Of a stretch of 64,000 nt of DNA, positions 395 through 19,168 are shown piece after piece (positions within the stretch are counted from its first letter, which is position 1; the number at the start of each line of letters is the position of its first letter). This stretch comes from Mycolicibacterium arabiense (GTDB lineage Bacteria; Actinomycetota; Actinomycetes; Mycobacteriales; Mycobacteriaceae). The notes below the pieces were generated by a model. That model saw only the letters and a program-made list of their open reading frames with translations. It did no database searches and had not been told where the DNA came from. The stretch spans positions 3,720,001 through 3,784,000 of the forward strand of contig NZ_AP022593.1 in NCBI RefSeq assembly GCF_010731815.2. Reading direction: 5' to 3'. The position numbers and the translations under genes were made by a program.

Positions 395-446
395 TGCACA
401 GAATGTGTCGGCACAGGGGGGAGTCACCTTCCTAGGCTGAGGTGAC
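395..446 (+). promoter_or_regulatory. TGCACA-motif operator plus -10 element for the aldo/keto reductase
   Basis: TGCACAGAATGTGT lies at 395-408. The likely -10 hexamer TAGGCT lies at 433-438, starting 38 bases after the motif start, and is bracketed by the inverted repeat GTCACCT (423-429) and AGGTGAC (440-446). No -35 is obvious, which fits activation from the motif near position -44. The same motif recurs before the other transcription units up to 19.1 kb. Confidence 0.6.
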
Positions 447-472
447 GCAGTCCGCGCACAGAAGGGTCATCG

Positions 473-1489
473 ATGAAGCCATCCGACAACAGATTTCACG
501 AGAGGTCAGGCCTGACCTTCACTGCGCTGGGCTTCGGTGGCGCACCGATCGGGAACTTCAACGGCGTCTTCTCGGATGAGGGCGCGTCGGCCATGGTCGA
601 GCAGTCGTGGCGGCAGGGCATTCGGTACTTCGACACGGCTCCCGGGTACGGCAATGGCCTTAGCGAGTATCGGCTCGGCCACGCGCTCCGCGGACGAGAT
701 CGCAGTGAGCTGGTGATCTCGACGAAGGTCGGTCGGGTCCTGACGCCAACCCGTGGTGCATCGAAGGTCAACGGTCAGTATGTGGACATTCCGCCGTTCG
801 TCGCGGAGTTCGACTACACCTATGACGGCGTGATGCGGGCAGTCGAGCAGAGTATGCAGCGAATGCTCACCGACCACTTCGATGCGCTGTTCATCCACGA
901 CTGCGATCGGTACACCCACGGTGCCTCGCAGCCCGACTACTTCCGCCAGGCGCTCGTCGGTGCCTTTCCCGCGCTCGAGTCGCTTCGCGATCAGAAGGTG
1001 GTGAAGGCGATCGGCTTCGGCGTCAACGAAACCGAGGTCATGACCGACGCGATCAAGGCCACCGACGCCGACCTCTGCCTACTGGCTGGGCGCTACACCC
1101 TGCTGGAACAGGATCCCCTAGACGACCTGCTACCGATGTGCGAGGAACGCGGCGTCGGGCTCGTCCTGGGTGGTGTGTACAACAGCGGCGTACTCGCAAC
1201 GGGGCCGGTCCGCGGGGCGCGTTTCAACTACGCTCCAGCGCCTGCCGAGGTGCTGCAGAAGGCCGGCGCCATTGCGGCCATCTGTGAGAGTCACGGCGTT
1301 CCGCTCGCCGCAGCAGCTCTACAGTTCGCCTACGCCCATCCCGTCGTGACGAGCATCTGCGTGGGTGCGCGTAATTACGTGCAGCAGGCACGCAACGTGG
1401 AACTGTTCGAAACCCAGGTGCCGGAACAGCTCTGGGTCGACCTCAGGACCGCTGGGCTGATCCGCGACGACGCACCGACACCGGCCTGA
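473..1489 (+). CDS. Aldo/keto reductase, D-threo-aldose/L-fucose 1-dehydrogenase type
   Basis: A 338-residue TIM-barrel NAD(P)-dependent oxidoreductase. The aldo/keto reductase tetrad is intact: Asp54 and Tyr59 (FDTAPGYG), Lys85 (STKVG) and His142 (FIHDCD). The N-terminal GFGGAPIGN and GLSEYRLGHAL segments resemble D-threo-aldose 1-dehydrogenases, which oxidise the anomeric carbon of an aldose to a lactone; relatives act on pyridoxal. A ribosome site GAAGGG (461-466) sits 6 bases before the ATG. It is a single-gene unit, convergent with the SDR at 1506, and carries the TGCACA motif and TAGGCT -10. The aldose substrate is inferred from family likeness only. Confidence 0.85.
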   Translation: MKPSDNRFHERSGLTFTALGFGGAPIGNFNGVFSDEGASAMVEQSWRQGIRYFDTAPGYGNGLSEYRLGHALRGRDRSELVISTKVGRVLTPTRGASKVNGQYVDIPPFVAEFDYTYDGVMRAVEQSMQRMLTDHFDALFIHDCDRYTHGASQPDYFRQALVGAFPALESLRDQKVVKAIGFGVNETEVMTDAIKATDADLCLLAGRYTLLEQDPLDDLLPMCEERGVGLVLGGVYNSGVLATGPVRGARFNYAPAPAEVLQKAGAIAAICESHGVPLAAAALQFAYAHPVVTSICVGARNYVQQARNVELFETQVPEQLWVDLRTAGLIRDDAPTPA

Positions 1490-1505
1490 TCGGCCGGGTG
1501 GCCAC

Positions 1506-2378
1506 TCATCGCCCGCTGTGGCCATCGACGAGGTGTGGGGCCTTGAACGGGTTCATTGCACCGGCGTCGACGACGTGCGCCGTGCCCGTGACGTAGCGGC
1601 CGTCGTCGCTTGCCAGGTACGCCACCGCGTTGCTGACGTCGATGGGGTCGAGGAATGGGACGGGCAGCGCGTGCATCGCGGTCAGCGCGGGCAGCGCGTC
1701 GGTCTGCGTGGCGCCCTCCTTGCCGCCGGCGAATAAGCGGTTGTAGCGGGGATTGTTGATCATCGCGGTGTTCACGTTGGTGGGGTTGACGGAGTTGACG
1801 CGGATACCATGTGGGGCAAGCTCTCCCGACAGCGTGCGCATGAGACCGTTCACCCCGTGTTTCGACGCCGCGTAGTGCCCGACGTTCAGTTCGACGGTAA
1901 GCCCGGAGATGGAGCTGACGAGGATGATCGCCCCGCCCTCGTTCTGCTCGAGCAGAAAGGGCACCGTGGCCTTGATGGTCTTCCATACTCCGGTGAGGTT
2001 GACGTCGATCTGATCCTGGAATTGCCGTTCGGACAGTTCCCACAGCGGCGCGGTGTCGTTGAGGGTGCCTGCGTTGGCGACCACGATGTCGAGGCGCCCC
2101 AGCTCGTCCACTGCAGCGGAAACGCACCGCTGCATGCCGGCGAGGTCACGGACGTCCACCTCGGCGGCGAAGACACGTCGTCCACGACTCTTGATCAGGT
2201 CGACCGTCGTGACCAGATCGTCGGAGTCGGCCATTGGATAGGGCACCGTGTCGATCTGGCGGCACAGGTCGAGCACGACGATGTCCGCGCCCTCCTCGGC
2301 CAGCCGCAGCGCGTGCGAGCGGCCCTGGCCGCGTGCCGCACCCGTGATGAGCGCGACCCTTCCCTCGAGTCGGTTCAT
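1506..2378 (-). CDS. Mycofactocin-coupled short-chain dehydrogenase
   Basis: A 290-residue Rossmann SDR. It has the glycine motif TGAARGQGRSHA (residues 12-23), DLC at the end of strand 2, ANAG (101-104) and the catalytic Ser156, Tyr169 and Lys173. The RGQGRSHA signature and the long segment after DLC (about residues 38-60) are typical of the mycofactocin-coupled SDR group, which holds NAD tightly and passes electrons to the peptide cofactor mycofactocin rather than to free NAD. Likely role: oxidation of a secondary alcohol. It begins 2 bases after the stop of the TPP enzyme, so the two are one operon. No mycofactocin biosynthesis genes are in the window. Confidence 0.87.
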   Translation of the reverse strand: MNRLEGRVALITGAARGQGRSHALRLAEEGADIVVLDLCRQIDTVPYPMADSDDLVTTVDLIKSRGRRVFAAEVDVRDLAGMQRCVSAAVDELGRLDIVVANAGTLNDTAPLWELSERQFQDQIDVNLTGVWKTIKATVPFLLEQNEGGAIILVSSISGLTVELNVGHYAASKHGVNGLMRTLSGELAPHGIRVNSVNPTNVNTAMINNPRYNRLFAGGKEGATQTDALPALTAMHALPVPFLDPIDVSNAVAYLASDDGRYVTGTAHVVDAGAMNPFKAPHLVDGHSGR

Positions 2379-2380
2379 GC

Positions 2381-4165
2381 CTACTGGTGCTGCTCGCTGG
2401 CGCGCATCTCGCGGTACTCGTCGGCGCGCTCGTCGGTGATGTGTGGCAGCGGCGGGAAGTCGAGCCACCCCGGTACGAATGGGCTCGCCAGATCGCGGTC
2501 GGTCGGCACCTCGACCAGCACGGGTGCCTTGGCGTCGAATGCCCGCTTGAATGTCGGCTCGAGGTCGCCGGCCGACTCGATGCGGAAGGACTCCAGCCCG
2601 AACGACTTCCCGAGGTCCTTGAAGCTGGGGCTGTAGGGCGAGCCATCGGGACGGTTGAACTCGGTCCCGATGATCCGGTCGGTCGCGTTGCGCTGGCCGC
2701 CACGAATGGAGATGTATCCGGAGTTGTCCTGCACGACGAACACCACGGGAATGTCGTGTTGCACTGCCACTCCGATCTCCTGGGCGGTCATCAGGAAGTC
2801 GCCGTCGCCGGTGATGCACGCGACCTGCCGCTCCGGAGCGGCGAGCTTCGCGCCGAGTGCGGCGGGCACGGGCCAGCCCATGGCGGAGAACCCGCCGGTG
2901 GTCAGGTGCGTGCGAGGCTCGTACACGGGGAACGTCTGCTTGACCGCACCTTGGGTGTTGCCGGACCCGGCCAACACGATGCCGTCGCGGTCCATCACCT
3001 GCCGCAGCGCAGCCAACGGACGCTGCAGCGTGAAGGGGAAGCGATCGGTGTCGCGGCGAGAGGACAATTCGTTCTCCCACTCCGCCTTTCGCTCCGCAAC
3101 TTCGGCGAGGTACTCCGTGCGGTCGGGCGCGCCGGGCAGTGACGCGACGATCGCGGCGACAGCGGGCTTCGCGTCGGCGAGGATGCCCACTTCGGCGGGA
3201 TAGATCTTGCCGATCTCGTGCGGGTCGATGTCGATGTGGATCAGCTTCGCCGGCGGGAAGGAAAACGACCGGCCCCGGGCATAACTGGACGACGACCAGT
3301 CGGTGAAGCGGCAACCGATCGACACCACCACGTCGGCGTTGGCAGCGAGGTAGTTGCCGTGAATGGTGCCCGTCTGCCCGACACTGCCGATGAACAAGTC
3401 GTGGTCCTCGGGGAACGCGCTCTTGCCGTTCCACGTGGTCACCACGGGGATGGACAGTGCTTCAGCCAGCGCACGCACCTCGTCGGTGGCGTTGGCGCTG
3501 ATGGCCCCGCCGCCGACCACGATCACCGGGCGCTTCGCGGTGGCCAGCACCTCCACCGCGCGGGCGATCGCCGAGGGATCGGGGTACTGCAGGCCGATGG
3601 GCAGGCGGCGGGCCAGGTCGTGGAAGTTGACCTCGGCGGTCTCGGCGTGCAGATCCCACGGCACCTCGATGTGGGCCGGACCCCGGCGGCCGGTCAGCAT
3701 GGTGCTGAACGCTCGGTGCATCACGAACGGCAGGTCCTCGATGCTGTTGGCGATCCAGCTGCGCTTGGACACGGCCTCGGCAACCTGCGGAAAACCGTTG
3801 TCCTTCTGACGTTCCAGCTCCTGCAGGACGCCGCGGCCGCGCATGTGACGCGGGGGTCCGCCGGTGATCACCAGCACGCTGGTGGAGTCGCTGTATGCGG
3901 TGGCCAATCCCAGGACGGTGTTGGAGGCGCCCGCACCGATCGAGGTCACGGCGCACATGGGCTTGCCCGACACCCGGTAGTAGCCGTCGGCGAGGTGAAC
4001 GGCGCTCTGTTCGTGGTAGGTCTGGATGAACGGGATCCTGGACTCGTCCTCGTTGAAGGCGTCCATCAGACCCCAGATGCCGTGTCCGGGGATGCCTGCG
4101 ACATACGGAACCCCGTACTCCTTGAGGATGCGGCCGATGACCTGCCCGCCGTTGAGCCTTGGCAT
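2381..4165 (-). CDS. Thiamine-diphosphate-dependent enzyme, acetolactate-synthase-like
   Basis: A 594-residue protein with the three-domain layout of the acetolactate synthase/benzoylformate decarboxylase family: N-terminal pyrimidine-binding domain with the cofactor-activating Glu52 (TYHEQSAVH), central domain (about 195-340), and C-terminal pyrophosphate domain with GDG at 453-455 and the metal-ligand Asn481. It should make or break a C-C bond next to a keto group. It is too far from IlvB to call a biosynthetic acetolactate synthase, and no small subunit is near. It is the first gene of the operon with the mycofactocin-type SDR, divergent from the PucR regulator, which favours a catabolic 2-keto acid or acyloin substrate. 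Confidence 0.85.
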   Translation of the reverse strand: MPRLNGGQVIGRILKEYGVPYVAGIPGHGIWGLMDAFNEDESRIPFIQTYHEQSAVHLADGYYRVSGKPMCAVTSIGAGASNTVLGLATAYSDSTSVLVITGGPPRHMRGRGVLQELERQKDNGFPQVAEAVSKRSWIANSIEDLPFVMHRAFSTMLTGRRGPAHIEVPWDLHAETAEVNFHDLARRLPIGLQYPDPSAIARAVEVLATAKRPVIVVGGGAISANATDEVRALAEALSIPVVTTWNGKSAFPEDHDLFIGSVGQTGTIHGNYLAANADVVVSIGCRFTDWSSSSYARGRSFSFPPAKLIHIDIDPHEIGKIYPAEVGILADAKPAVAAIVASLPGAPDRTEYLAEVAERKAEWENELSSRRDTDRFPFTLQRPLAALRQVMDRDGIVLAGSGNTQGAVKQTFPVYEPRTHLTTGGFSAMGWPVPAALGAKLAAPERQVACITGDGDFLMTAQEIGVAVQHDIPVVFVVQDNSGYISIRGGQRNATDRIIGTEFNRPDGSPYSPSFKDLGKSFGLESFRIESAGDLEPTFKRAFDAKAPVLVEVPTDRDLASPFVPGWLDFPPLPHITDERADEYREMRASEQHQ

Positions 4166-4283
4166 GCGATGTCCTTCCTAGTGTTGACGGCAACGTATTC
4201 GAGGCGGTGCTCCGGACTGCACCGGAGGCTCCCCGAGACGTCGGTTCACTCGAGTGTGACTGTCCCAGCCCGTATGGCGTTAG

Positions 4284-4297
4284 ACTCATTTTGTGCA
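4284..4297 (-). promoter_or_regulatory. TGCACA-motif operator between TPP-enzyme operon and pucR-type regulator
   Basis: On the minus strand the bases read TGCACAAAATGAGT, 13 of 14 matching the consensus seen elsewhere in the island. It points toward the TPP-enzyme operon, where a weak -10 (CACACT, 4258-4253) lies 39 bases on. On the plus strand the site directly follows TAGACT (4281-4286), a plausible -10 for the regulator, so binding could also block the regulator's own promoter. A palindrome CACTCGAGTG lies at 4247-4256. Confidence 0.5.
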
Positions 4298-4342
4298 GCC
4301 GAATCAGCGGATCATGCACAGCGTGGACGGAGGTCGGCATCC

Positions 4343-5905
4343 GTGGCGATGACGGTGGAGGCGGCGCTTCAGCTCGAGGTCTTCAGTCGTGTGCCCTGGA
4401 AGGTGTACGCAGGCAACGATGCTCTGCACCGATCGATCCGCTGGGTACACCCCACCGAGGTCCCGGACATCGCCAAGTTCCTCAGGGGCGGCGAGATGCT
4501 GTTGACCGCTGGCCTGGGCATCGGAACCACTCCCGACCGTCAACGTCGATACGTTGCCGAGATCGCCGACGCCGAGGCCGCCGTGCTGGTCATCGAACTC
4601 AGCGGGCGCGCGTTCACCACCATGCCGCAAGCCCTCGTCGAGGCCGCTCGCGAGCGGGGCCTGCCCGTGGTCGGGTTGGACGGTGAGCTGCCCTTCGTCG
4701 AGGTATCGGCGCAGGTGCACGAATCGATCGTCGACCAGCGCGTGCTCGATCTCAGCGCCTACGAGCGACTCAACGCGACCTTCATGCAGCTGCTGTTGGC
4801 GGGCCGCGACCCCGTGTCGTTCACTGACGCATTGGCAAGCGAAGTCGGCTATCCCGTCGCGCTGGAGGACGCCACCCGCCAAGTCCTGGCGTACTCCGGT
4901 GGGTCGGCTTCCGGGGACGAGTTGCTCACGCAGTGGGAGCATCACTCGCGCATCGATCACGACGCCGCGGGTAGCGAATCGTCCAACGGCCACGACGTGC
5001 ACAACTGCACCCGCCGAGCGGTCGTGCTGCGCGGCGAACGCTGGGGATGGCTGCACGTGCTGCACGGCGGCGCGGCGATGGTCGGCACCGCCGGTTATGC
5101 CCTCGACCGGGCCACCGACGGCATCGCGATCGCGCTGCTGGGAGCTCGCGAGAGCGGTGCGAAGTCGGCTCAACGCCAGAACGCGCTGGTGAGCCGACTG
5201 CTGCTGGGCGACATCTCCGGTGACGACTTCGTCGCGCGGGCGCTGCGGATCGGGCGGGACCTGCGGGATCGGGCGCTCGTGGCGGTCTTCGTGGTCAAGG
5301 AGGAACCGGCCGGCTCCACCAGCGACGAAGCAATGGAAGACCTCTGCCGTGCGCTGCACGTTCCGGCGGTGGTCGCAGATCTCGGCGAGCACACGCTGAT
5401 GATCATGGGCCTGTCGCGGACGAGTTCGGAGAAGCGCGTGGTCGAGCGACTGAGCACGCTCGACGTGCGTGCGGGAATTAGCCGCCCCGTCAGCGCAAGT
5501 CAACTGGTCACGGCCGTCGAGCAGGCGCGCAACGCGGCGTCGGTGGCCGCGGCGCGCCCCGACAAGGCGGTGCATCGCTTCGACGATCTCGGTGTGCTGC
5601 GCCTGTTGGCGTCGCTGGCCGGCGGGCCGGAGCTGACCCGCTACATCGAGGACGAACTGGGGTCGCTGCTCAAACACGACGCGAAGGCGACCAATCCGCT
5701 GCTGCCGACGCTGCGCACGTACCTGGCGTGCGACGGCAACAAATCGCAGACCGCTCAACAGTTGTTCGTGCAACGACGCACCCTCTACTACCGGTTGGAC
5801 CGCATCACCGCGTTGCTCGGACGGTCCCTGGACGACCCGGACACCAGGCAGGCGTTGATCTTCGCCGTGCGAGGGCACGATCTGTTGCAGCGCAGGAACG
5901 GCTAG
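4343..5905 (+). CDS. PucR/CdaR-family transcriptional regulator
   Basis: A 520-residue regulator. The N-terminal PucR ligand-sensing domain spans about residues 8-125 (FLRGGEMLLTAGLGIG), a CdaR-type GGDEF-like middle domain about 290-400, and the C-terminal PucR helix-turn-helix about 455-515 (NKSQTAQQLFVQRRTLYYRL). The GTG at 4343 is preferred because GGAGGT (4329-4334) is 8 bases upstream; ATG 4349 is the alternative. The reading frame stays open far upstream, but that part has no similarity to the family. Relatives activate purine, amine or aromatic catabolism. It is the only regulator inside the 1-20 kb island and is divergent from the TPP enzyme, so it is the best candidate to bind the repeated TGCACA motif. 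Confidence 0.87.
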   Translation: MAMTVEAALQLEVFSRVPWKVYAGNDALHRSIRWVHPTEVPDIAKFLRGGEMLLTAGLGIGTTPDRQRRYVAEIADAEAAVLVIELSGRAFTTMPQALVEAARERGLPVVGLDGELPFVEVSAQVHESIVDQRVLDLSAYERLNATFMQLLLAGRDPVSFTDALASEVGYPVALEDATRQVLAYSGGSASGDELLTQWEHHSRIDHDAAGSESSNGHDVHNCTRRAVVLRGERWGWLHVLHGGAAMVGTAGYALDRATDGIAIALLGARESGAKSAQRQNALVSRLLLGDISGDDFVARALRIGRDLRDRALVAVFVVKEEPAGSTSDEAMEDLCRALHVPAVVADLGEHTLMIMGLSRTSSEKRVVERLSTLDVRAGISRPVSASQLVTAVEQARNAASVAAARPDKAVHRFDDLGVLRLLASLAGGPELTRYIEDELGSLLKHDAKATNPLLPTLRTYLACDGNKSQTAQQLFVQRRTLYYRLDRITALLGRSLDDPDTRQALIFAVRGHDLLQRRNG

Positions 5906-5916
5906 AACGGACGGCC

Positions 5917-5997
5917 TGCACAGTGTGTGTAGCGTGCCACCGACTGCTGCACACTTCGTGCCTCCATTGGCGACCGGCGCACTCCTAGGTTGGGAGT
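5917..5997 (+). promoter_or_regulatory. Tandem TGCACA-motif operators and -10 for the GMC/OYE operon
   Basis: Two copies lie 31 bases apart: TGCACAGTGTGTGT (5917-5930) and TGCACACTTCGTGC (5948-5961). The -10 TAGGTT (5986-5991) begins exactly 38 bases after the second motif and is flanked by ACTCC (5981-5985) and GGAGT (5993-5997), the same arrangement as at the aldo/keto reductase promoter. Confidence 0.6.
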
Positions 5998-6032: not shown

Positions 6033-7598
6033 ATGACCACCGCTGTAGCGGCGTTGCAGTCGCAGATCGTCACCGACCCGCCCGACGTCGTCGAGACCGA
6101 CGTCGCGGTCATCGGATCGGGCATGGGCGGAGGGAGCCTCGCCTACGCGCTGCGCGACAGCGGCGTCGACGTCCTGATCGTCGAGCAGGGCGACTTCTTG
6201 CCGATCGAGCGGGAGAACTGGTCCTTCGACGCGGTGCACACCCAGGGCCGGTACAAGAACTCCGCAGCATGGCACGACGCCGCCACGGGCATCGACTTCG
6301 TGCCCGGCAACTACCACTACGTCGGTGGCAGCACCAAGCTCTACGGGGCCACGCTGCCGCGTTTCCGCGAATGCGACTTCGGCGAGATCGCCCACGTCGA
6401 CGGCACGTCGCCGGCCTGGCCCATCGACTACGCAGACCTCGAACCGTTCTACGCGCAGGCAGAACAAATGTTCTGGGTGCACAGCAACAAGGGCGAGGAC
6501 CCGACCGACCCCTGGCGGTCCACCGACTACCCGTTCGCAGGCATCCCCCACGAAGGGGCGATGGCCAGGCTGGTCGAAAGCGCCAAGAAGCAGGGGCTGC
6601 ATCCCTTCTCCGCTCCGCAGGCAATCGACTGGCGGCCCGGCGGACGGTGCGTGCTGTCCTACACGTGCGATTCGTTCAACTGCATGCGCGATGCCAAGGG
6701 CGATGCCGACGTCGCCGCCGTCCGGCCGGCGCTCAACGCGGCGTCGAAGAACGTCCGGCTGATGACCAACTCCGAAGTGGTGCGGTTGGAGACCGACGCC
6801 ACCGGACGCACGGTCGTCGCCGCGCACATCCTGCACCAGGGACGCCGAATCCAAGTGCGTGCCAACAAGTTCGTGATCGCCTGTGGCGCGGTCAACACCG
6901 CCGCGCTACTGCTGCGCTCTGCGTCTCGAACCCACCCGCAGGGCTTGGCCAACTCCTCGGACCAGGTGGGCCGCAACTACATGGCCCACATCACCACCTT
7001 CTTCCTGGCCATCGATCCCCGCAGGAAGAACGACGCCGTCTACCAGAAGACGATCGGTATCAACGACTGGTACACGGCCGGACCCACCAACCAGTACCCA
7101 CTGGGCAACGTGCAGGGCCTGGGCAAGCTGCGTGGCCCGCAGGCGAAGATGGGCCAACCGCGGATCCCCATGCCGATTCTGGACGCGGTCACCCAGTACA
7201 CCCTTGACCTATTCATCCAATCCGAAGACCTGCCGTTGGCCGAGAACCGCGTCTACGTGAACTCGTCGAACCAGATCTGCATCGCGCGGCGCGAAACCAA
7301 CCTCACGGCGCACCGCGACCTCATCAGACGGATGAAGAAGGTCGTCCGCAAGGCCGGCTTCCCGGTGGTGCTCACCCGCAGCCTGGGCGTGGAGGCGACC
7401 TCGCACCAGTGTGGCACCGCCCGCATGGGCGACGATCCCGCCACCAGCGTCGTCGACGCCAACCTGCGCGCCCACGACGTCGAGAATCTCTGGATCGCCG
7501 ACACCTCGTCGTTCCCGTCCTCGGCGGCGGTGAATCCGGCCATCACCGCAGCGGCGCTCGCACTGCGGCTCGGTGCGTCAGGTGCGCTGACCTCGTGA
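6033..7598 (+). CDS. GMC-family FAD-dependent oxidoreductase
   Basis: A 521-residue flavoprotein. The FAD-binding GSGMGGG motif is at residues 28-34, followed by the YVGGSTKLYGATLPR segment typical of the family. The C-terminal GMC domain has the active-site pair His458 (SHQCGT) and Asn501 (AVNPA). It should oxidise an alcohol, possibly a sugar hydroxyl: this short GMC subtype includes C3-oxidising glycoside dehydrogenases. ATG 6033 has GAGGAG 4 bases upstream and matches the family start; the frame is open further up without likeness. It is the first gene of a four-gene operon and overlaps the next gene by 4 bases. Confidence 0.87.
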   Translation: MTTAVAALQSQIVTDPPDVVETDVAVIGSGMGGGSLAYALRDSGVDVLIVEQGDFLPIERENWSFDAVHTQGRYKNSAAWHDAATGIDFVPGNYHYVGGSTKLYGATLPRFRECDFGEIAHVDGTSPAWPIDYADLEPFYAQAEQMFWVHSNKGEDPTDPWRSTDYPFAGIPHEGAMARLVESAKKQGLHPFSAPQAIDWRPGGRCVLSYTCDSFNCMRDAKGDADVAAVRPALNAASKNVRLMTNSEVVRLETDATGRTVVAAHILHQGRRIQVRANKFVIACGAVNTAALLLRSASRTHPQGLANSSDQVGRNYMAHITTFFLAIDPRRKNDAVYQKTIGINDWYTAGPTNQYPLGNVQGLGKLRGPQAKMGQPRIPMPILDAVTQYTLDLFIQSEDLPLAENRVYVNSSNQICIARRETNLTAHRDLIRRMKKVVRKAGFPVVLTRSLGVEATSHQCGTARMGDDPATSVVDANLRAHDVENLWIADTSSFPSSAAVNPAITAAALALRLGASGALTS

Positions 7599-10532: not shown

Positions 10533-11739
10533 CTCCCCAACCCAGGATCGAACTCTGGTGCTCTGGCGCTGCACCGTCTGCGCGTTCTTCGCCTCATTCG
10601 GGATGCTGCTGTCGACCTGGGCCGTGCACCTTCCGACTCTGCAGCAGCGAGCCGACATCTCGACGGCCCAGCTGGGAACCGTCCTGATGGTCCTCGGCGC
10701 CGGATCCCTGCTCGCCATGCAGTTCAGTGGGTCGTTGATCGATCGCGTGGGGAGCCGGGCCGTGGCCGTGGTGTCAGGGACGGCCATGGCACTCCTGCTG
10801 AACGTTCCGCTTCTCGCGGCCACGCTCTCGCAGGCCGTCGTCGGAGCCTTCGTCTTCGGCGTCGCCGTCGGTGCAGCGGACGTATCGATGAATGCCGCGG
10901 CCGTCGACGTCGAACGCGAGTACGACCGCCCCATCATGGCGGCATTCCACGGTGTGTTCTCCATCGGCACCGTCGCCGGATCGTTGCTCGCCGCCGCCGG
11001 GTTCAGCACCGGGGTGGATGCGACGATCCAAACCGTGGCCGTCGCAGGCCTATGCGCGTGCGTCGTCCTGGGCGCGGCCTTGCTGACGCGCCGGACCGAC
11101 CGGGGGCGCTCGGCCCCGGCGTCGAAAGGGGATCGAGACCGCCCTGGACCGACGGCCAAGAGGCGGCGGCCCTCCATGCGGGTGTTCGTCCTGGGCATGC
11201 TCGCGTTTCTGCTCCTACTGGCCGAGGGGTCTGCGATGGATTGGAGCAGTCTGCACGCTCAACGACATCTCGGCGCCTCCCCGACCTTGGGGGCACTGGC
11301 ATTCGGGACGTTCGTGACGGCCATGACGATCGGACGGTTCAGTGTCGACCGAATCGTGTCGAGGGTGGGCTCGGTACGGGTCGTTCGGTGGGGCTCGGCG
11401 GCGGCAGCTCTCGGCCTACTGATCGTCACGCTGTCTCCCGCGCTGCCCGTCACTCTCATCGGGTGGTTGCTGCTGGGACTCGGGCTCGCCGGCGGCGTGC
11501 CGCAGGCATTGACCGCCGCCGGCAATGTCGGCAGCGAGCCGGGGCGGGCACTGTCGCGGGTCGTCGGCCTGGGATACATCGGCATCCTTTCCGGACCCGG
11601 AATCATCGGGTGGGTCGCGGAGTTCACCTCGCTCAACATCGCGCTCGTCGTGCCGCTGTGCGCGGCCGTCGCGTGTGCGCTCATCGCAGGTGTCGTAGCG
11701 GTCCCGCTCAGGGAGGACGTACAGCACCAGCCGTCTTGA
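10525..11739 (+). CDS. MFS transporter
   Basis: A 404-residue major facilitator with about 12 hydrophobic helices. The loop after helix 2 carries DRVGSRAVAV, a version of the MFS A-motif, and the central cytoplasmic loop (about residues 190-215) is basic. It resembles the YbjJ-like branch of uncharacterised facilitators. It is the last gene of the GMC/OYE/EamA/MFS operon. A second transporter in one operon suggests paired uptake and efflux. Substrate unknown. Confidence 0.83.
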   Translation: MSDSPTQDRTLVLWRCTVCAFFASFGMLLSTWAVHLPTLQQRADISTAQLGTVLMVLGAGSLLAMQFSGSLIDRVGSRAVAVVSGTAMALLLNVPLLAATLSQAVVGAFVFGVAVGAADVSMNAAAVDVEREYDRPIMAAFHGVFSIGTVAGSLLAAAGFSTGVDATIQTVAVAGLCACVVLGAALLTRRTDRGRSAPASKGDRDRPGPTAKRRRPSMRVFVLGMLAFLLLLAEGSAMDWSSLHAQRHLGASPTLGALAFGTFVTAMTIGRFSVDRIVSRVGSVRVVRWGSAAAALGLLIVTLSPALPVTLIGWLLLGLGLAGGVPQALTAAGNVGSEPGRALSRVVGLGYIGILSGPGIIGWVAEFTSLNIALVVPLCAAVACALIAGVVAVPLREDVQHQPS

Positions 11740-11763
11740 CTGTGCACCAGAACCGCGCGCCGC

Positions 11764-11807
11764 TGCACATGATGTGTCTGTCGCCGTCATGGCCGCCCGC
11801 TGAGACT
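11764..11807 (+). promoter_or_regulatory. TGCACA-motif operator of the HisD-like operon
   Basis: TGCACATGATGTGT lies at 11764-11777. The hexamer GAGACT at 11802-11807, which keeps the two most conserved -10 bases (second A, last T), begins 38 bases after the motif start, the same spacing as at the 473 and 6033 promoters. Confidence 0.5.
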
Positions 11808-11870: not shown

Positions 11871-13208
11871 GTGTCGGACACACTCAAGGCACCCGCCGCC
11901 GAAGTCTCGACGGCGAACAAGAGCAATCCTCGGGTGGTCGACACCGTCGCCGCGGTGCTCGCCGACATCCGTTCGGGCGGCGACGACGCGGTGCGCAAGT
12001 ACTCCGAGCAGTTCGACCGCTGGTCACCGGAGGCGTTCCGCCTCGACGACGCCCAGATCGCGCGCATCGTGGGGGACCTGCCGACGACGGTCATCGACGA
12101 CCTCACATTCGTACAACGTCAGGTGCGCAACTTCGCACAGGCACAACGTGACTCCATGCTCGACGTCGAGATCGAGACGCTGCCGGGCGTTCGCCTGGGC
12201 CACAAGCACGTGCCGGTGGCGGCCTCGGGCGCCTACGTTCCCGGTGGGCGCTATCCGCTGACGGCGTCAGCGCACATGACCGTCGTCACCGCCAAGGTCG
12301 CCGGGGTCGAGCGCGTGGCGGCTACCACGCCGCCCAACGACGGCATCGCCCCGCCGATCAGCGTGGCTGCCATGCACCTGGCCGGCGCCGACGAGATCTA
12401 CGTCCTCGGTGGCGTGCAGGCAATCGGCGCACTGGCACTGGGCACGGAGACGATCGCGCCCGTCAACCTGCTCACTGGGCCTGGAAACGCCTACGTGGCA
12501 GAAGCCAAACGCCAGTTGTTCGGAGAAGTCGGCATCGACTTGTTCGCAGGCCCCACCGAGGTGCTGATCGTCGCGGACGACACCGCCGATCCATTCGTCG
12601 TCGCTGCGGACCTCCTGAGCCAGGCCGAACACGGCCCGGATTCGCCGTGCGTTCTGATCACCACCTCGGAGCGGGTCGGCCGCGAGACCATTGCGGAGGT
12701 GACGCGGCAGCTGCGCAATCTGCCCACCGCCTCCGTGGCGTCGGTGTCGTGGCGGGACCACGGCGAGGTTCGGCTCGTGGACACGATCGACGAGGCCTTC
12801 GCGCTGGCCGACCGGTACGCCAGCGAGCACGTGCAGATCCTGACGGCCGAACCGCGGGCGGCCCTCACCGGCATGCGCGACTACGGTGCGCTGTTCCTCG
12901 GCGAGAAGACGTGCGTATCGTTCGGCGACAAGGCGATCGGTACCAACCACGTGTTACCCACCCTCGGCGCCGCCCGGTACACGGGTGGACTGTGGGTCGG
13001 CAAGTACCTCAAGACCGTCACCTACCAGGAGATCGACGACGCCCAGTCCAGCGCGGAGCTGGGGCGCATCTGCGGGCGGGCGGCACGCTTGGAGAACTTC
13101 GAGGGACACGCGCGCTCCGCCGACGTTCGCGCGGCCAAGTATGGCGGCGACACGCTGCCGTGGTCCGATCACGACCTCACCGCCGGTCAGCGCGCAACGC
13201 TTGCCTGA
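11871..13208 (+). CDS. Histidinol-dehydrogenase-like NAD-dependent alcohol dehydrogenase
   Basis: A 445-residue HisD-superfamily enzyme. The zinc ligands (Gln251, His254, Asp353, His413) and the catalytic Glu319-His320 pair (ASEHVQ) are all present, so it should oxidise a primary alcohol to a carboxylate in two NAD-dependent steps. The operon has no other his gene and includes an aspartase and a ThuA-like protein, so histidine biosynthesis is unlikely. The closest functional analogy I know is sulfopropanediol 3-dehydrogenase (HpsN), but no sulfolactate lyase is nearby. The GTG start has AAGGAG (11857-11862) 8 bases upstream. Confidence 0.85.
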   Translation: MSDTLKAPAAEVSTANKSNPRVVDTVAAVLADIRSGGDDAVRKYSEQFDRWSPEAFRLDDAQIARIVGDLPTTVIDDLTFVQRQVRNFAQAQRDSMLDVEIETLPGVRLGHKHVPVAASGAYVPGGRYPLTASAHMTVVTAKVAGVERVAATTPPNDGIAPPISVAAMHLAGADEIYVLGGVQAIGALALGTETIAPVNLLTGPGNAYVAEAKRQLFGEVGIDLFAGPTEVLIVADDTADPFVVAADLLSQAEHGPDSPCVLITTSERVGRETIAEVTRQLRNLPTASVASVSWRDHGEVRLVDTIDEAFALADRYASEHVQILTAEPRAALTGMRDYGALFLGEKTCVSFGDKAIGTNHVLPTLGAARYTGGLWVGKYLKTVTYQEIDDAQSSAELGRICGRAARLENFEGHARSADVRAAKYGGDTLPWSDHDLTAGQRATLA

Positions 13209-13239: not shown

Positions 13240-13791
13240 ATGACCCGACACGATCCGCCTCGGCTGCCCACTCTGCGCGCCGTCGACCACGTCGCCTACA
13301 CCGTGCCGAGCCTCGACGAGGCCATAGCGTTCTTCGTCGACCACTTCGGCGCCGAGCTGATCTTCACCGACGGCCCCTTCGCGGACCCCACATCCGACGG
13401 AATGCGCAGGCGCCTCGACGTGGACCCACGCGCGCAGTGCTCACTGGCGATGCTCCGCCTCGGCCAGCACCACAACGTCGAACTGTTCGAATACACGGCG
13501 CCCGAACAACAGTCGACGCCGCCACGCAACAGCGACGTCGGCGGGCACCACCTCGCCTTCTACGTCGACGACATCGACGCCGCATTCGACTACGTCCGGT
13601 CGATTCCCGGTGTGGTCACGCAGGAGGGGCCGAACGACGTCAGCCCCGACGCTCCGGTCGCCGGACAGCGGTGGTTCTACTTCAAGACGCCCTGGGGCAT
13701 GCAAATGGAGTTGACGACGTGCGGGGGCGACGGCTTCTACACCGGTCTGCCCGGCGCCGAGATGGTGGCGCCCACCGAGACCTGGAGATGA
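13240..13791 (+). CDS. VOC-family protein (glyoxalase/dioxygenase fold)
   Basis: A 183-residue vicinal-oxygen-chelate protein with two beta-alpha-beta-beta-beta modules. Candidate metal ligands are His17 (AVDHVAY), Glu81 (HHNVELFEY), His103 (GGHHLAFYV) and Glu157 (MQMELTT), so it probably binds a divalent metal and acts as lyase, isomerase or epimerase rather than a resistance protein. AAGGAG (13227-13232) precedes the ATG by 7 bases. It follows the HisD-like gene by 31 bases and overlaps the aspartase start by 4. Specific reaction unknown. Confidence 0.82.
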   Translation: MTRHDPPRLPTLRAVDHVAYTVPSLDEAIAFFVDHFGAELIFTDGPFADPTSDGMRRRLDVDPRAQCSLAMLRLGQHHNVELFEYTAPEQQSTPPRNSDVGGHHLAFYVDDIDAAFDYVRSIPGVVTQEGPNDVSPDAPVAGQRWFYFKTPWGMQMELTTCGGDGFYTGLPGAEMVAPTETWR

Positions 13792-15275
13792 GCGCGCCAC
13801 TGATGACCGCCCACCTCGTCGACGGGCCTCAGGCGACGCGCGTAGAGCGGGACTCCCTTGGCTCGCTCGACGTGCCCGTCGACGCCTACTACGGCATCCA
13901 CGCTGCGCGCGCAGTCGCCAACTTCCCCATCTCGGGTGTCACCCTCTCTGCCTACCCCCACTTCGTCTCTGCCTTGGCTGCGGTGAAAGAGGCGGCAGCG
14001 CTGGCGAACTGCGAACTGGGCTTGCTCGACAGCAGACGCAGCAGTGCGATCGTCGCCGCATGTGGCGAGATCCGCTCAGGCGCGCTGCACGAACACTTCG
14101 TCGTCGACGTCATCCAGGGAGGGGCGGGCACGTCGACGAACATGAACGCCAACGAGGTCATCGCCAACCGCGCCTCGGAGCTACTGGGAGGAAACCGCGG
14201 AGACTACGATCTCGTCGACCCCCTCGAGCACGTCAACAGAAGTCAGAGCACCAACGACGTGTATCCCACCGCCATCAAAGTGGCGCTGCAGATGCACATC
14301 AGCGACCTTCACGAAACCCTGCTCGGACTCGCCTCCGCCTTCGGCACGAAGGCCGAGGAGTTCGCGTCGGTCTTGAAGATGGGGCGAACGCAGCTACAGG
14401 ACGCGGTACCAATGACTCTCGGTCAAGAGTTCGGTACGTACGCTGTCATGGTCGCCGAGGACGCCGAACGACTCCGCGAGGCTGCGCGCCTGGTCTCCGA
14501 GGTCAACCTCGGCGGTACCGCCATCGGAACGGGCCTCAACTCCCATCCCGGGTACGCCCCGCTCGTGTGTGCCAAGCTCAACGAGATCACGGGACTCGAA
14601 CTGTCGACGGCTCCGGACCTCATCGAGGCGACGCAGGACGTGGGCGCGTTCGTGCAAGTGTCGGGTGTGCTCAAGCGGACGGCGCTGAAGCTGTCGAAGA
14701 TATGCAATGACCTGCGCCTGCTTTCCTCGGGCCCGCGGTCGGGCTTGAACGAGATCAACCTTCCTGCAATACAATCGGGATCCAGCATCATGCCGGGAAA
14801 GGTCAACCCCGTCATACCCGAGGTCGTCAATCAGGTTGCCTTCGAAGTAGTCGGAAACGACGTCACCATCAGCATGGCCGCCGAAGCAGGACAGCTGCAG
14901 CTCAACGCCTTCGAACCGATCATCGCTCACAGCCTGTTCCAGTCGCTGACCCACCTACGGGCGGCCTGCCAGACTCTCGTCGACCGCTGCATCACGGGGA
15001 TCAGTGCAAACGAAGCGCGACTGCATGATTCAGTCATCAACTCCATCGGCGTCATCACTGCCTTGAATCCCTACATCGGATACGCAGCCTCGGCCCGGGT
15101 GGCGAAGGCGGCGCTGCAGAGCGGTAGGACCATCCCCGACCTCGTCGTCGAGGAGGGGCTACTGACGGCGGAACAGGTCACCGTCTTGCTGATGCCAGAA
15201 TCTCTGGTGAGGCCACGGGAGATGGTGTCGCTCGGCGCCGCCACCGGAATCGACCAAGGGAAGGGCGCCCACTGA
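13788..15275 (+). CDS. aspA: Aspartate ammonia-lyase
   Basis: A 495-residue member of the aspartase/fumarase superfamily. All three conserved regions are seen: GTSTNMNANE (114-123), GRTQLQDAVP (199-208) and the catalytic loop signature GSSIMPGKVN (331-340). The text following the signature (PVIPEVVNQ, then MAAEAGQLQLN) is closer to aspartase than to fumarase. It should release ammonia from L-aspartate to give fumarate; a substituted aspartate is possible. The ATG at 13788 overlaps the VOC stop; MTAHLVDG at 13803 is an alternative start. Its presence suggests nitrogen from the island's substrate passes through an aspartate-like compound. Confidence 0.85.
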   Translation: MSAPLMTAHLVDGPQATRVERDSLGSLDVPVDAYYGIHAARAVANFPISGVTLSAYPHFVSALAAVKEAAALANCELGLLDSRRSSAIVAACGEIRSGALHEHFVVDVIQGGAGTSTNMNANEVIANRASELLGGNRGDYDLVDPLEHVNRSQSTNDVYPTAIKVALQMHISDLHETLLGLASAFGTKAEEFASVLKMGRTQLQDAVPMTLGQEFGTYAVMVAEDAERLREAARLVSEVNLGGTAIGTGLNSHPGYAPLVCAKLNEITGLELSTAPDLIEATQDVGAFVQVSGVLKRTALKLSKICNDLRLLSSGPRSGLNEINLPAIQSGSSIMPGKVNPVIPEVVNQVAFEVVGNDVTISMAAEAGQLQLNAFEPIIAHSLFQSLTHLRAACQTLVDRCITGISANEARLHDSVINSIGVITALNPYIGYAASARVAKAALQSGRTIPDLVVEEGLLTAEQVTVLLMPESLVRPREMVSLGAATGIDQGKGAH

Positions 15276-15934
15276 TGACCAACGTTCTCTACCTCTATGG
15301 CGGTTGGCCCGGGCATCGGCCGTACAACATCGCCGAATGGACTCGCGACCTCGTCGGTGAACTCGGGTACGACATCGAAGAGTCACACGACATCTTCACT
15401 CTCGATCGCGATCTCACCGCCTACGACCTGATCATCCTCGGCTGGAACAACGCGCTCACGACCGAAGACCTGTCCGACTCCCAGGAAGACCACCTACTCG
15501 AGGCCGTGGAGTCAGGGACGGGCGTAGCGGCATGGCACGGTGCAGCAGCGGCGTTCAGGTCCAGTTTGCGATACCACCTGATGCTGGGCGGTGACTTCCT
15601 CGCGCATCCGGGAGGGGAAGGGTATCCGCACCCGTACGAGGTCAACGTGACCAATCGCGACCACCCCGTGACCCAGGGCGTGAATGACTTCTCGGTGGCC
15701 TCCGAGCAGTACTACATGAGCACCGACCCCAACAACGAGGTGCTGGCCGAAACCACCTTCGACGGCTCGCACCTCGCCTGGCTCGACGGGCTCAAGAGCC
15801 CCGTGGCATGGGTCCGTCAGTGGGGTGAGGGGCGAGTGTTCTACCACTCGATCGGTCACGCGCCGCAGGATCTCGCCGGCGCAGACGTCCGCAGGCTGAC
15901 CAAGCAGGGCATCGCCTGGGCGGCGCGCCGCTGA
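15275..15934 (+). CDS. ThuA-like domain protein
   Basis: A 219-residue protein of the ThuA/glutamine-amidotransferase-like fold. The N-terminal VLYLYGGWPGHRPYN, the central GTGVAAWHGA (about residues 84-93) and the C-terminal GEGRVFYHSIGH are typical of this family. ThuA proteins act with sugar oxidoreductases that make 3-keto sugars, as in trehalose and sucrose utilisation, although the precise chemistry differs between systems. The ATG shares one base with the aspartase stop. With the GMC enzyme and the aldose-dehydrogenase-like AKR, it supports a keto-sugar or polyol-like intermediate in this island. Confidence 0.82.
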   Translation: MTNVLYLYGGWPGHRPYNIAEWTRDLVGELGYDIEESHDIFTLDRDLTAYDLIILGWNNALTTEDLSDSQEDHLLEAVESGTGVAAWHGAAAAFRSSLRYHLMLGGDFLAHPGGEGYPHPYEVNVTNRDHPVTQGVNDFSVASEQYYMSTDPNNEVLAETTFDGSHLAWLDGLKSPVAWVRQWGEGRVFYHSIGHAPQDLAGADVRRLTKQGIAWAARR

Positions 15935-16325
15935 GGCGCGAGCACTCCCGTATCCGCCAGCCAGCTAACCGCACGGGTTCCTCGGCGCTGCGTGCGCGCA
16001 CCTAGGGACGTGCAGCCGGCGCTGCCGCGACAGCCCCTTCTCGAGTGAGCTTCATCCGAGCGTCCTACCGGGTGGTGCTCGATGCCGCGAGACGTCTGTG
16101 AGCTGCAGGTTTCCGGCTCGAAACTGCGCTGTAACGGTAGTCAGCCCGTACCCACTGCGTGCAACGACCCGGGCGGTAGTTGCACACAATGGGTCTGACT
16201 CACGCACCCTCGTTCAACCACAATTCAACTGTGGCGGCAGTCACAGGCGCCAGCGCAGCACTCACTTCGCGCCCGCCGCAACGATTTCGCAGCGACCGCA
16301 GAACACCTGGATGAAGGGATACGAG
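15935..16325. other. 391-base intergenic region before the APC permease
   Basis: No gene is supported here. It holds one TGCACA-type site (16181-16194), a C-rich inverted repeat CCACA (16218-16222) / TGTGG (16230-16234) where the -10 would be expected, and a GC-rich stretch just after the ThuA-like gene that may end transcription. The long distance from the motif to the permease start implies a leader of roughly 95 bases. Confidence 0.45.
16181..16194 (+). promoter_or_regulatory. TGCACA-motif operator of the APC permease
   Basis: The bases TGCACACAATGGGT match the island consensus at 12 of 14 defined or neutral positions. The hexamer starting 38 bases on (CACAAT, 16219-16224) retains the -10 second A and last T, within a short inverted repeat. 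Confidence 0.45.
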
Positions 16326-17954
16326 ATGTTGGGAACCAATGGTGGGAGGAAGTCGCTGTCAGGCGACGATGCCCACCTCCGCGTGCTGGGCTACGAGGAG
16401 AAGTTCGACCGCAAGATCGGCCAGTGGTCGAACTTCGCCCTCGGCTTCCTCTACCTGTCGCCGATGGTTGGCGTGCTGTCGATGTTCACATTGGCGCTCA
16501 CCACGGCCGGTCCACCCTCGATTCTGTGGCTGGTGATCGCCGCCTTCGGCCAACTCCTCGTCGCGATGGTCTTCGGTGAGATCGTGTCGCAGTTCCCGAT
16601 CGCCGGCGGTCTGTACCAGTGGGCTCGGCGCCTGTGGAACGGCCCGTACGCCTGGATCATGTCGTGGATCTACATCGCCGGGATCGTCGTCGGCTGCACC
16701 ACGACCGCGATGTTCAGCGCCGACTTCGTGCTTGCGCTCTTCAACGCTGATTCGAACATCTCCTCGACTCCCTTGGAGAAGTTGGTCATCGCGACGATCG
16801 TCGTGTTGATCTGTTTGGCGCTGAACTCGACAGGGTCCAAGACGCTGGCGACGATCGCCAAAGTCGGTCTGGCCGCTGAGGTTGCCGGCATCGTGGTCGT
16901 GGGTCTCTACCTGCTCACCTTCGCGCGGAAGAACGACTTCTCGGTCCTATTCGACACGTTCGGCACGGGTGGCAGCGGCGACTACGCGAGCGCGTTCTTC
17001 ACGGCCGCGATCATCGGTCTGGTGCTTTACTACGGTTTCGAGGCTTGTGGGGAAGTCGCAGAGGAAACGCCGAACCCCAGTAGGACCATCCCGCGGTCGA
17101 TGGTGCTGACCGTGGTGCTCGGTGGAGGCGCTGCGCTGTTCTCCTTCATCGGGTACATCCTGGCTGCGCCCAACCTGCAGCAGATCGTCGACGGCGAGGT
17201 TGCCAATCCCATCACGGCCATTCTGACGGCGACGTTCGGCACGATCGGTACGAAGATCTTCCTCGTCATCGCCCTGACGTCGTTCCTTGCGTGTGTCATG
17301 GGTCAGCAGGCCGCGGGCAGCCGATTGATCTTCTCGTTCGCACGCGACGACATGTTCCCGGGGAGTGCGATATTCAAGAAGATCTCGAGCAGGAAGGTGC
17401 CCGTCAACTCGATCGTCCTCGTCGCGTTCCTTCCCATCTGTCTCTTCGTCTTGCTGTACTTCTTGCCGGATGCGCTCTTCCGGGTGGCGGCATTCCAGAT
17501 GTTGGCCGGCTACTTCGCCTTCCAGATGGTCGTCTTCGCTTCGTTGCGTGCGCGAGCCAAGGGCTGGGAGCCCGGCGGTCAGTGGTCCCTCGGGAAGTGG
17601 GGCTGGCCGGTCGGCATCGGCGCACTCGTGTACGGAGTGTTCTCGATGATCGTTCTTGCGCGCCCCAACGGTGACTTGAGCCTGCCCTTCTACGATCGCT
17701 GGATCGCCTTGATCGGATTCGTCGTCGTCGCCGCGGTCGGGCTGCTCTACATGTGGATCGCCAAGCCGTACCAGAAGTCGACTGCGCCCGAGGGCGACGC
17801 CATCCAGATCGCCGATCTGCTGCGCGCGCATCGGGCCCAGCATGACGCTGAACGGTTGGCCGAAGCAGCACCCGTGGCTGAGCCCACGCCGGATGCTCAG
17901 TCACGTCGGACGCAGGAGACCCCGCCGCGGGAACCCATCGCCTCGATCGACTGA
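16326..17954 (+). CDS. APC-superfamily amino acid/amine permease
   Basis: A 542-residue membrane protein with about 12 hydrophobic helices and a hydrophilic C-terminal tail of roughly 60 residues. The GGLYQWARRLW segment in helices 2-3 and EACGEVAEETPNPSRTIPRSM in the middle are hallmarks of the amino acid/polyamine/choline group, near the eukaryote-type amino acid permeases. It likely imports the island's nitrogen-containing substrate by proton symport. ATG 16326 has AAGGGA 6 bases upstream; ATG 16311 is a weaker alternative. It is a single-gene unit with its own TGCACA motif. Confidence 0.87.
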   Translation: MLGTNGGRKSLSGDDAHLRVLGYEEKFDRKIGQWSNFALGFLYLSPMVGVLSMFTLALTTAGPPSILWLVIAAFGQLLVAMVFGEIVSQFPIAGGLYQWARRLWNGPYAWIMSWIYIAGIVVGCTTTAMFSADFVLALFNADSNISSTPLEKLVIATIVVLICLALNSTGSKTLATIAKVGLAAEVAGIVVVGLYLLTFARKNDFSVLFDTFGTGGSGDYASAFFTAAIIGLVLYYGFEACGEVAEETPNPSRTIPRSMVLTVVLGGGAALFSFIGYILAAPNLQQIVDGEVANPITAILTATFGTIGTKIFLVIALTSFLACVMGQQAAGSRLIFSFARDDMFPGSAIFKKISSRKVPVNSIVLVAFLPICLFVLLYFLPDALFRVAAFQMLAGYFAFQMVVFASLRARAKGWEPGGQWSLGKWGWPVGIGALVYGVFSMIVLARPNGDLSLPFYDRWIALIGFVVVAAVGLLYMWIAKPYQKSTAPEGDAIQIADLLRAHRAQHDAERLAEAAPVAEPTPDAQSRRTQETPPREPIASID

Positions 17955-17965
17955 CGTAGGCGGAG

Positions 17966-18000: not shown

Positions 18001-18072
18001 TCGCTTTCGCTGCATTGCTCGCGGCTGCGGCGGCCAGGTCGTGAACCGCAGCACGGGTTCTAACGCAGAGCA

Positions 18073-18109
18073 GCCCTCCCGAACGTCGATGTGACGTCAG
18101 CGGGAGGGC
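18073..18109 (-). terminator. Hairpin terminator after the mycofactocin-type SDR
   Basis: GCCCTCCCG (18073-18081) pairs perfectly with CGGGAGGGC (18101-18109), lying 26 bases beyond the stop of the minus-strand SDR. Together with the hairpin at 17966-18000 it separates two convergent units. Confidence 0.6.
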
Positions 18110-18134
18110 CGCCCAGGGTCGTGCGCAGTGCCGG

Positions 18135-18968
18135 TCAAGACTTCACTATGAACCCCGCGTCGATGACCATCGAGGTTGCCGTGATGTAGCGGCCGGGCTC
18201 GGTGACCAAATACAGGATCGCACTGCTCACGTCTCGCGGCTCGATCCATGGGACCGGGAGAAGATGTGTGCCGGAAAAGGTTTCGATGACATCCTCGCGG
18301 GTGGGCTTGTCCAAATCGGGACGGAAGAGGCCATACACGAAGTCGTTGTTGATCATGTGGGTGTCGACGCAGGTCGGATTCACCGAGTTCACGCGGATCC
18401 GATACTGCCCCAGTTCCCGGGCCAACGACGTCATCAGGCCCGTGACGCCGTGCTTCGACGCTGCGTATGACGAGATGTTCTCGGCACCCTTGAGCGCCTC
18501 GGTCGATCCGATGAAGACGATGCTTCCTCCGTCGCCCTGCGAGATCAGCGTGGGCGCCGCCGCCTTGACGGTGTGGAAGACGCCGTTCAGGTTGATGTCG
18601 ATCATCTCGCGCCAGTCCTGTGGACTGATCTCCCACGTCTTGGCTCCCGAGCAGATACCGGCATTGGGGATGACGATGTCCACGCGGCCGAAACGGTCGA
18701 TGCCGCGGTCGAATACGGCCTTCACCTGGTCGTAGTCGCGGGTGTCGGCCACTTCGGCGTGGAGCTGCCCGCCGGCTTCCTTCACCATGCGAGCCGTCTC
18801 TTCGAGGTCTTCCCGGGTGGCGCCCGCGTAGGCCGTCGTAGAGGGCTTACCGCATAGATCCAGTCCGATGATGTCGGCGCCTTCGCGTGCCAGCGCGAGT
18901 GCGTGTGAACGCCCCTGTCCCCGAGCGACACCCGTGATGAAGGCGACCTTGCCGTCAAGCTGTCCCAT
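18135..18968 (-). CDS. Mycofactocin-coupled short-chain dehydrogenase (second copy)
   Basis: A 277-residue SDR with TGVARGQGRSHA (12-23), DLCG at the end of strand 2, PNAG (101-104) and catalytic Ser155, Tyr168 and Lys172. The RGQGRSHA motif and the extended loop after residue 40 place it with mycofactocin-coupled SDRs, like the gene at 1506 but clearly divergent from it, so the two probably oxidise different alcohols in the same pathway. The ATG at 18968 gives MGQLDGKVAF, the normal family start; a longer frame reaching 19028 lacks support. It is a single-gene unit divergent from the LLM oxidoreductase. Confidence 0.86.
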   Translation of the reverse strand: MGQLDGKVAFITGVARGQGRSHALALAREGADIIGLDLCGKPSTTAYAGATREDLEETARMVKEAGGQLHAEVADTRDYDQVKAVFDRGIDRFGRVDIVIPNAGICSGAKTWEISPQDWREMIDINLNGVFHTVKAAAPTLISQGDGGSIVFIGSTEALKGAENISSYAASKHGVTGLMTSLARELGQYRIRVNSVNPTCVDTHMINNDFVYGLFRPDLDKPTREDVIETFSGTHLLPVPWIEPRDVSSAILYLVTEPGRYITATSMVIDAGFIVKS

Positions 18969-19062
18969 GCTGCGTCTCAATCCAGTCGAAGGGTACGGCG
19001 CGACCTTGTCGGGCGCCGGAAGCTGCACGTCCTGCGCAGTGCGTGGAACGTAACACGCGTTG

Positions 19063-19075
19063 TCTCACAATGAGA
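19063..19075. promoter_or_regulatory. Palindrome TCTCA-CAA-TGAGA between SDR and LLM genes
   Basis: A perfect 5-base-arm palindrome with a 3-base centre in the 294-base divergent region. A looser TGCACA-like copy, TGCGCAGTGCGTGG, lies at 19033-19046. They could serve the minus-strand SDR promoter. Function is inferred from position only. Confidence 0.35.
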
Positions 19076-19124
19076 TTGACGTGAGCGAAGTATGCCCAGT
19101 CAGCGCAATGAGGGGCTCGTGGAT

Positions 19125-19168
19125 TGCACAACATGTGCGTGGTGCCACCCGCGACGCCCCACTAGCGT
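19125..19168 (+). promoter_or_regulatory. TGCACA-motif operator and -10 of the LLM oxidoreductase
   Basis: TGCACAACATGTGC lies at 19125-19138 and TAGCGT, a reasonable -10, at 19163-19168, again exactly 38 bases from motif start to hexamer start. Because the site is nearly symmetric it could also serve the divergent SDR. Confidence 0.55.

Follow-up and report, generated by a model that had tools for sequence, protein, structure and literature searches.

A two-armed operator at six promoters of a Mycolicibacterium arabiense catabolic island, with PucR as its probable regulator

A 19-kb catabolic island of Mycolicibacterium arabiense is probably controlled as one regulon through a two-armed operator that recurs before its six transcription units. 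The island lies in a 64,000-nucleotide stretch of contig NZ_AP022593.1 (positions 3,720,001-3,784,000 of a 6.45 Mb genome), referred to here as the window, and all positions given below are those of the window. A previous sequence-only reading of this DNA had singled out a 14-base motif, TGCACA-N2-ATGTGT, as the shared site of an activator, and had named the PucR-type protein encoded in the island as the likely regulator. In the interpretation favoured here, the 14-mer is the promoter-proximal arm of the operator TGTGCA-N17-TGCACAnnnTGnGTC, which would be bound by a PucR oligomer that activates the six units and probably represses pucR itself. This interpretation, drawn from sequence comparison, is given a probability of roughly 0.82.

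The operator and its promoter geometry

All seven copies of the 14-mer reported in the sequence-only reading exist, with no mismatch at 395 and 11764, one at 4284 (minus strand), 5917, 16181, and 19125, and three at 5948, and every one of them falls between assigned genes. At no more than one mismatch, six copies are present in the window against a mean of 0.18 in shuffled sequence, and none of 100 shuffles reached six. The same threshold returned nine copies from the whole genome, six of them within the island; the three remaining copies lie across open frames longer than 150 codons, and one of these lies in a hairpin-like stretch (judged by eye). The motif is real and very likely serves regulation, but it constitutes only half of the element, as alignment of the sites revealed an inverted arm 17 base pairs (bp) upstream of the core at a fixed distance, giving TGTGCA-N17-TGCACAnnATGTGTC. 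When this pattern was searched genome-wide at up to three mismatches, the four matches obtained, at 372, 4283 (minus strand), 11741, and 16158, all fell within the island, compared with one match for the reversed control. The pattern extended by the -10 box was matched at seven places under the same limit, five being island operators, operator 6 included, and two lying elsewhere, with three for the control; a wider regulon in the same genome was not found at the thresholds used.

The copy at 5917 was considered as an operator in its own right and rejected, having no nAnnnT hexamer, the form of the mycobacterial -10 consensus, at +38 or +39 from its start. It is the left arm of the operator at 5948 with the outer part of that arm, and it resembles a second copy of the motif because the half-site is nearly palindromic. 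The earlier placement of the motif just before operons therefore holds for six operators and six units, not seven:

Operator 1, 372..409, plus strand: TGTGCA-N17-TGCACAGAATGTGTC, before the aldo/keto reductase gene; -10 TAGGCT at 433-438.
Operator 2, 4283..4320, minus strand: TGTGCA-N17-TGCACAAAATGAGTC, between pucR and the divergent gene for a thiamine diphosphate (ThDP)-dependent enzyme; -10-like CACACT at 4258-4253 (minus strand) for the ThDP unit.
Operator 3, 5926..5962, plus strand: TGTGTA-N16-TGCACACTTCGTGCC, before the GMC/OYE unit; -10 TAGGTT at 5986-5991.
Operator 4, 11741..11778, plus strand: TGTGCA-N17-TGCACATGATGTGTC, before the HisD-VOC-AspA-ThuA genes; -10 GAGACT at 11802-11807.
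Operator 5, 16158..16195, plus strand: CGTGCA-N17-TGCACACAATGGGTC, before the APC permease gene; -10-like CACAAT at 16219-16224.
Operator 6, 19102..19139, plus strand, with the weakest left arm: AGCGCA-N17-TGCACAACATGTGCG, before the luciferase-like gene; -10 TAGCGT at 19163-19168.

A hexamer of the nAnnnT form begins 38 or 39 bases from the core start in all six operators (TAGGCT, CACACT at +39, TAGGTT, GAGACT, CACAAT at +38, and TAGCGT), an event with a chance of about 0.058 per site. The +38 placement had been described at 395, 5948, 11764, and 19125 and is found there as described; since the offset was derived from those four sites, only the other two represent fresh tests within the window. 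The hexamer at 11764 had been called weaker, which does not hold, as GAGACT corresponds to the commonest form in relatives (AGACTGG). Among 43 sites in the relatives (at most four mismatches and located before a mapped gene), nAnnnT stands at +38 in 29 and at +39 in 12, and no other offset from 15 to 51 shows it in more than seven.

At a class II-type promoter, the activator binds next to the -35 box at a fixed distance from the -10, the -35 is poor, and contact between activator and polymerase is needed. The class II-like geometry previously suggested by a motif at about -50 to -37 gains support from the rigid -10 spacing. Counted from the -10, the core arm covers about -50 to -36, adjoining the -35, and the inverted arm about -73 to -68, some two helical turns further up; the best -35 match to TTGACA (spacings of 15-19) is no better than four of six positions at the six window promoters, scored alone. 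On the pucR side of operator 2, no nAnnnT is found at the standard distance, where the window already carries pucR coding sequence, and between the far edge of the operator and the pucR start codon there are 23 bp if the gene begins at the GTG and 29 bp if it begins at the ATG. This arrangement suggests that PucR probably represses its own gene.

Conservation among relatives

Of 396 genomes sampled from the genus, 18 carry a pucR orthologue, the M. arabiense genome itself being counted, and beyond the genus orthologues were detected in G290 (another genus of the same family, 66%) and in G844 (52%) and G1130 (54%), which belong to other families. The relatives include Mycolicibacterium wolinskyi and five Mycobacterium records. 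The two-armed pattern derived from the window was matched 32 times at up to three mismatches across 439 kb of island loci from 19 relatives, compared with a mean of 0.04 and a maximum of 4 for 300 permuted patterns; the 32 matches were obtained with a spacer of 17, and other spacers from 10 to 25 gave between 0 and 5. None of the 32 falls inside a tblastn-mapped gene.

Conservation before orthologous operons, which the sequence-only reading had proposed as a check, is seen at HisD, where a site at no more than four mismatches is present in 21 of 21 orthologue promoters examined (19 genus members of at least 84% identity, G290, and G844). The site is retained in G563, G397, G637, and G529, in which HisD is no longer beside pucR or lies on a different contig, and it is also present, with three mismatches, at the HisD promoter of G1130. 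A profile of the HisD promoters of 19 of these genomes (two of the 21 were dropped as 90% identical) puts conservation, in bits per base, at 1.7 and 1.5 for the arms and 1.3 for the -10; the two spacers reach 0.45-0.56 and the outer flanks about 0.3. The shorter spacer of operator 3 recurs at the GMC promoters of G661, G616, G367, and G637, each with a spacer-16 site and nAnnnT at +38 or +39, the TAGGTT of G661 being the same as in the window; a fifth spacer-16 match, in G488, lacks nAnnnT, and the GMC promoters of other relatives have a spacer of 17. The proposal of one shared operator is supported by this conservation across rearranged gene orders, with the amendment that each copy is a two-armed dyad. 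Sequence comparison establishes the element, its arms, their spacing, its conservation, and its near confinement to the islands.

Two side observations were made in these genomes. A two-way operator with two and three mismatches (G1130, L160; positions 26664 and 26682 of L159+L160) stands before genes unmatched to island genes and is a possible further target. HisD-like genes of 67-68% identity in G346, G482, G470, G312, and G448 have one stop within the matched stretch; these are possibly decayed copies, or the stop may lie at the edge of the match.

PucR as candidate binder and competing explanations

The window PucR carries the N-terminal domain PF07905 (3.4e-33, above the cut-off), a GGDEF-like middle domain (PF17853, 4.1e-10), and the C-terminal PucR-type helix-turn-helix PF13556 (1.9e-21). 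An inverted-repeat operator at target promoters is a trait of PucR-type regulators, and the dyad with a 17-bp spacer found by sequence is of this kind. The protein is favoured as the binder because it is the sole regulator recognised by Pfam in the island, an operator stands at its gene, pucR and HisD occur together, and the half-sites change in parallel with PucR in paralogous islands, lines of evidence that lend weight to the earlier choice of PucR. At up to five mismatches, an operator is found just upstream of pucR in 19 of 20 genomes, the window and G336 among them, and it is retained in G637, G397, G563, and G844, where the divergent gene is not that of the ThDP enzyme. In the genus sample, pucR is accompanied by HisD (at least 84%) in all 18 carriers. 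Across whole genomes, 19 pucR carriers yielded 61 pattern matches at up to three mismatches (control 6), with at least one match in 18 of them; 111 genus members without a pucR match (118 genomes minus six carriers and G360) yielded 38, each with three mismatches, against 34 for the control. Given that sites and genes travel together, this contrast ties the motif to the island and not strictly to PucR.

Paralogous islands containing HisD, AspA, GMC, ThDP, and ThuA genes alongside a PucR of about 40-46% identity were encountered at L139-L142, L161-L163, and L168. The operator layout before HisD is retained in such islands with altered half-sites, namely TTCCCGCAATGGGTC in G432 and TTCCCGCGATGAGTC in G375 and G625, with nAnnnT at +38; the HisD-facing arm in G230 is TTCCCACAATG, and the site upstream of pucR in G155 is TTCCCGCCTTGCGTC. 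Carriers of YRCACA half-sites (the window clade, G844, G1130, and G548) have Tyr or His as the recognition-helix residue following RRTLY, and the five carriers of TTCCCR have Asn, a covariation that is at most suggestive of binding by PucR. The degenerate pattern used in these scans was written after some of the altered sites were known, so its matches are not an independent test; it was also matched away from mapped targets, once inside the PucR gene of G227. HisD paralogues of 66-67% (G578, the second copy of G616, and G424) have no site before HisD at up to five mismatches. Tentatively, and at rather less than even odds, an actinobacterial PucR clade may share one rigid promoter code, with inverted arms 16-17 bp apart and the -10 38-39 bp from the core, in which paralogues would be rewired through the half-site and one residue of the recognition helix. 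If true, such a code would allow the regulons of uncharacterised PucR proteins to be read from sequence.

In the mechanism we propose, an effector-responsive PucR oligomer would occupy the two arms from the same face of the DNA (with a spacer of 16 at the GMC promoter) and contact RNA polymerase just upstream of the -35, at promoters having a -10-like box but a poor -35. A metabolite signal would thereby lead PucR to turn on six units for the uptake and oxidation of a single substrate, while PucR bound at operator 2 would block its own gene. The binder, the activation, the autorepression, and the inducer are the parts of this scheme that we infer.

GntR- and TetR-type regulators act as dimers, and a dimer of this sort encoded outside the island might bind a TGCACA-N3-TGTG core, with PucR acting elsewhere. 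The core is indeed nearly palindromic, TGCACA and TGTGCA at a distance of 3 are likewise over-represented in the relatives' loci, and G360 has sites without a pucR match. Such a regulator would nevertheless have to account for an element that stays at pucR while the neighbouring genes differ and for half-sites that vary with PucR in the paralogous islands, and we consider it improbable. By Pfam, PucR also remains the only regulator in the island: an Lrp/AsnC-type gene (20718-21227), divergent from an indolepyruvate-oxidoreductase-type gene (region 20718-24816), lies just outside and has no match in the relatives' island stretches compared.

PucR might alternatively bind the dyad and repress the six units until an inducer lifts the repression. 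The direction of control is not readable from sequence, and PucR of Bacillus subtilis is quoted as both activator and repressor in PMC7652997, but the other family members named there are activators. Repression of the six units is also at odds with a core placed entirely upstream of the -10, at a constant distance of 38-39 bp, and with the poor -35 boxes, and we regard it as a similarly unlikely explanation.

Several observations weigh against activation by PucR through a shared dyad. The 14-mer alone is not enriched in the window at up to three mismatches (24 found, 31.8 expected) or genome-wide at up to two (120, against 116 for the reversed control); operators 3 and 6 fall outside the three-mismatch cut of the two-armed genome scan. 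In G290, no site is found near pucR at up to five mismatches or anywhere in the genome at up to three, and the copies before pucR in G616 and G367 are weak ones (five mismatches). G360 (73% complete) has HisD and sites and no pucR match, its contig C111 (L124) holding an island fragment with three operators and a HisD of 89%. The rule linking residue and half-site is broken by G242 (Asn with TGCACA), and the degenerate pattern turned up nothing usable before HisD in G227 (Asn) or anywhere in G299. The relatives, moreover, are not independent samples of each other. A chance cluster or the functionless remnant of a repeat would agree with the behaviour of the 14-mer at loose thresholds, where its frequency does not exceed that of shuffles or controls, but is contradicted by the two-armed pattern and by the spacer, permutation, and conservation-profile tests, leaving it a negligible likelihood.

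Island genes and known PucR-type systems

The genes assigned in the island are as follows.

473..1489, plus strand: aldo/keto reductase (Pfam); nearest solved structures are L-galactose dehydrogenases.
1506..2375, minus strand: first mycofactocin-type short-chain dehydrogenase/reductase (SDR); coordinates taken from the conserved start region.
2381..4165, minus strand: ThDP-dependent enzyme of the acetolactate synthase/glyoxylate carboligase type (NCBIfam and nearest solved structure).
4349..5905, plus strand: pucR, with PucR N-terminal domain, GGDEF-like domain, and C-terminal HTH_30 (Pfam); a GTG start at 4343 is also possible.
6036..7598, plus strand: GMC oxidoreductase (Pfam); nearest solved structures are glucose and fructose dehydrogenases.
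7598..9625, plus strand: FadH/OYE-type flavoenzyme (NCBIfam, solved relatives).
9648..10532, plus strand: EamA-type transporter.
10525..11739, plus strand: MFS transporter (Pfam).
11874..13208, plus strand: HisD-family dehydrogenase; closest solved relative is sulfopropanediol 3-dehydrogenase.
13243..13791, plus strand: VOC (glyoxalase-like) protein (Pfam).
13791..15275, plus strand: aspartase/fumarase-family lyase, AspA (solved relatives).
15275..15934, plus strand: ThuA-domain protein (Pfam, solved relatives).
16326..17954, plus strand: APC amino-acid/amine-type permease.
18135..18968, minus strand: second mycofactocin-type SDR, divergent from operator 6.
19266..20162, plus strand: luciferase-like oxidoreductase (Pfam).

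At the left edge of the window, an open frame runs leftwards from about 292 (1-292, minus strand), divergent from operator 1, and presumably resembles a DoxX-type membrane protein. The nearest solved structures of the island enzymes did not settle the substrate of the pathway, and neither did the extra genes near the island of G563, which encode an Fe-type alcohol dehydrogenase, a peptide-type ABC transporter, a phosphoesterase, a LacI-type regulator, and an acetamidase-type enzyme; an amino alcohol or a polyol would be our guess. The hunt is narrowed by the grouping of an HpsN-like dehydrogenase, the ThDP enzyme, the aspartase-like lyase, the mycofactocin-type SDRs, and the GMC oxidoreductase in one regulon. 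Because the geometry is fixed and the regulon offers six promoters in a single genome as well as 21 orthologous hisD promoters, binding, spacing, and autoregulation lend themselves to direct tests.

The sequence-only reading had taken the regulon to be undescribed, and among the matches listed from the open-licence PubMed Central literature no description of the regulon or the motif was found. The best NCBIfam match of the window PucR is PmfR (NF045769), mostly over the N-terminal domain, at 78.1 bits against a cut-off of 800, which denotes a related and not the same protein; a search of the open-licence literature did not find the PmfR binding site.

According to PMC7652997, on which the following comparisons draw, few PucR-type regulators have been studied so far, about half of the members possess the GGDEF-like middle domain, and inverted-repeat operators are recorded for GabR, AdeR, and PutR and not for PucR of B. 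subtilis. GabR of Corynebacterium glutamicum, a PucR-type activator of gabTDP, resembles the island PucR in being encoded beside its targets, and its inverted-repeat sites lie at about -87 to -23 of the target start. GabR has two 21-bp inverted repeats at one promoter and no GGDEF-like domain (PMC7652997), whereas each of the six island promoters has a single dyad, its arms 16-17 bp apart, and the island PucR does contain the GGDEF-like domain. AdeR and PutR of B. subtilis are PucR-type activators that, like the island PucR, combine a GGDEF-like domain with inverted-repeat sites; compared by length alone, their repeats are 24 bp and 17 bp, respectively (PMC7652997), against 29 bp across both hexamers in the island. 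PucR-type activators and inverted-repeat sites are already known, and the features particular to this island are a regulon of six promoters, a spacer of 16-17 bp between the arms, and a rigid distance to the -10.

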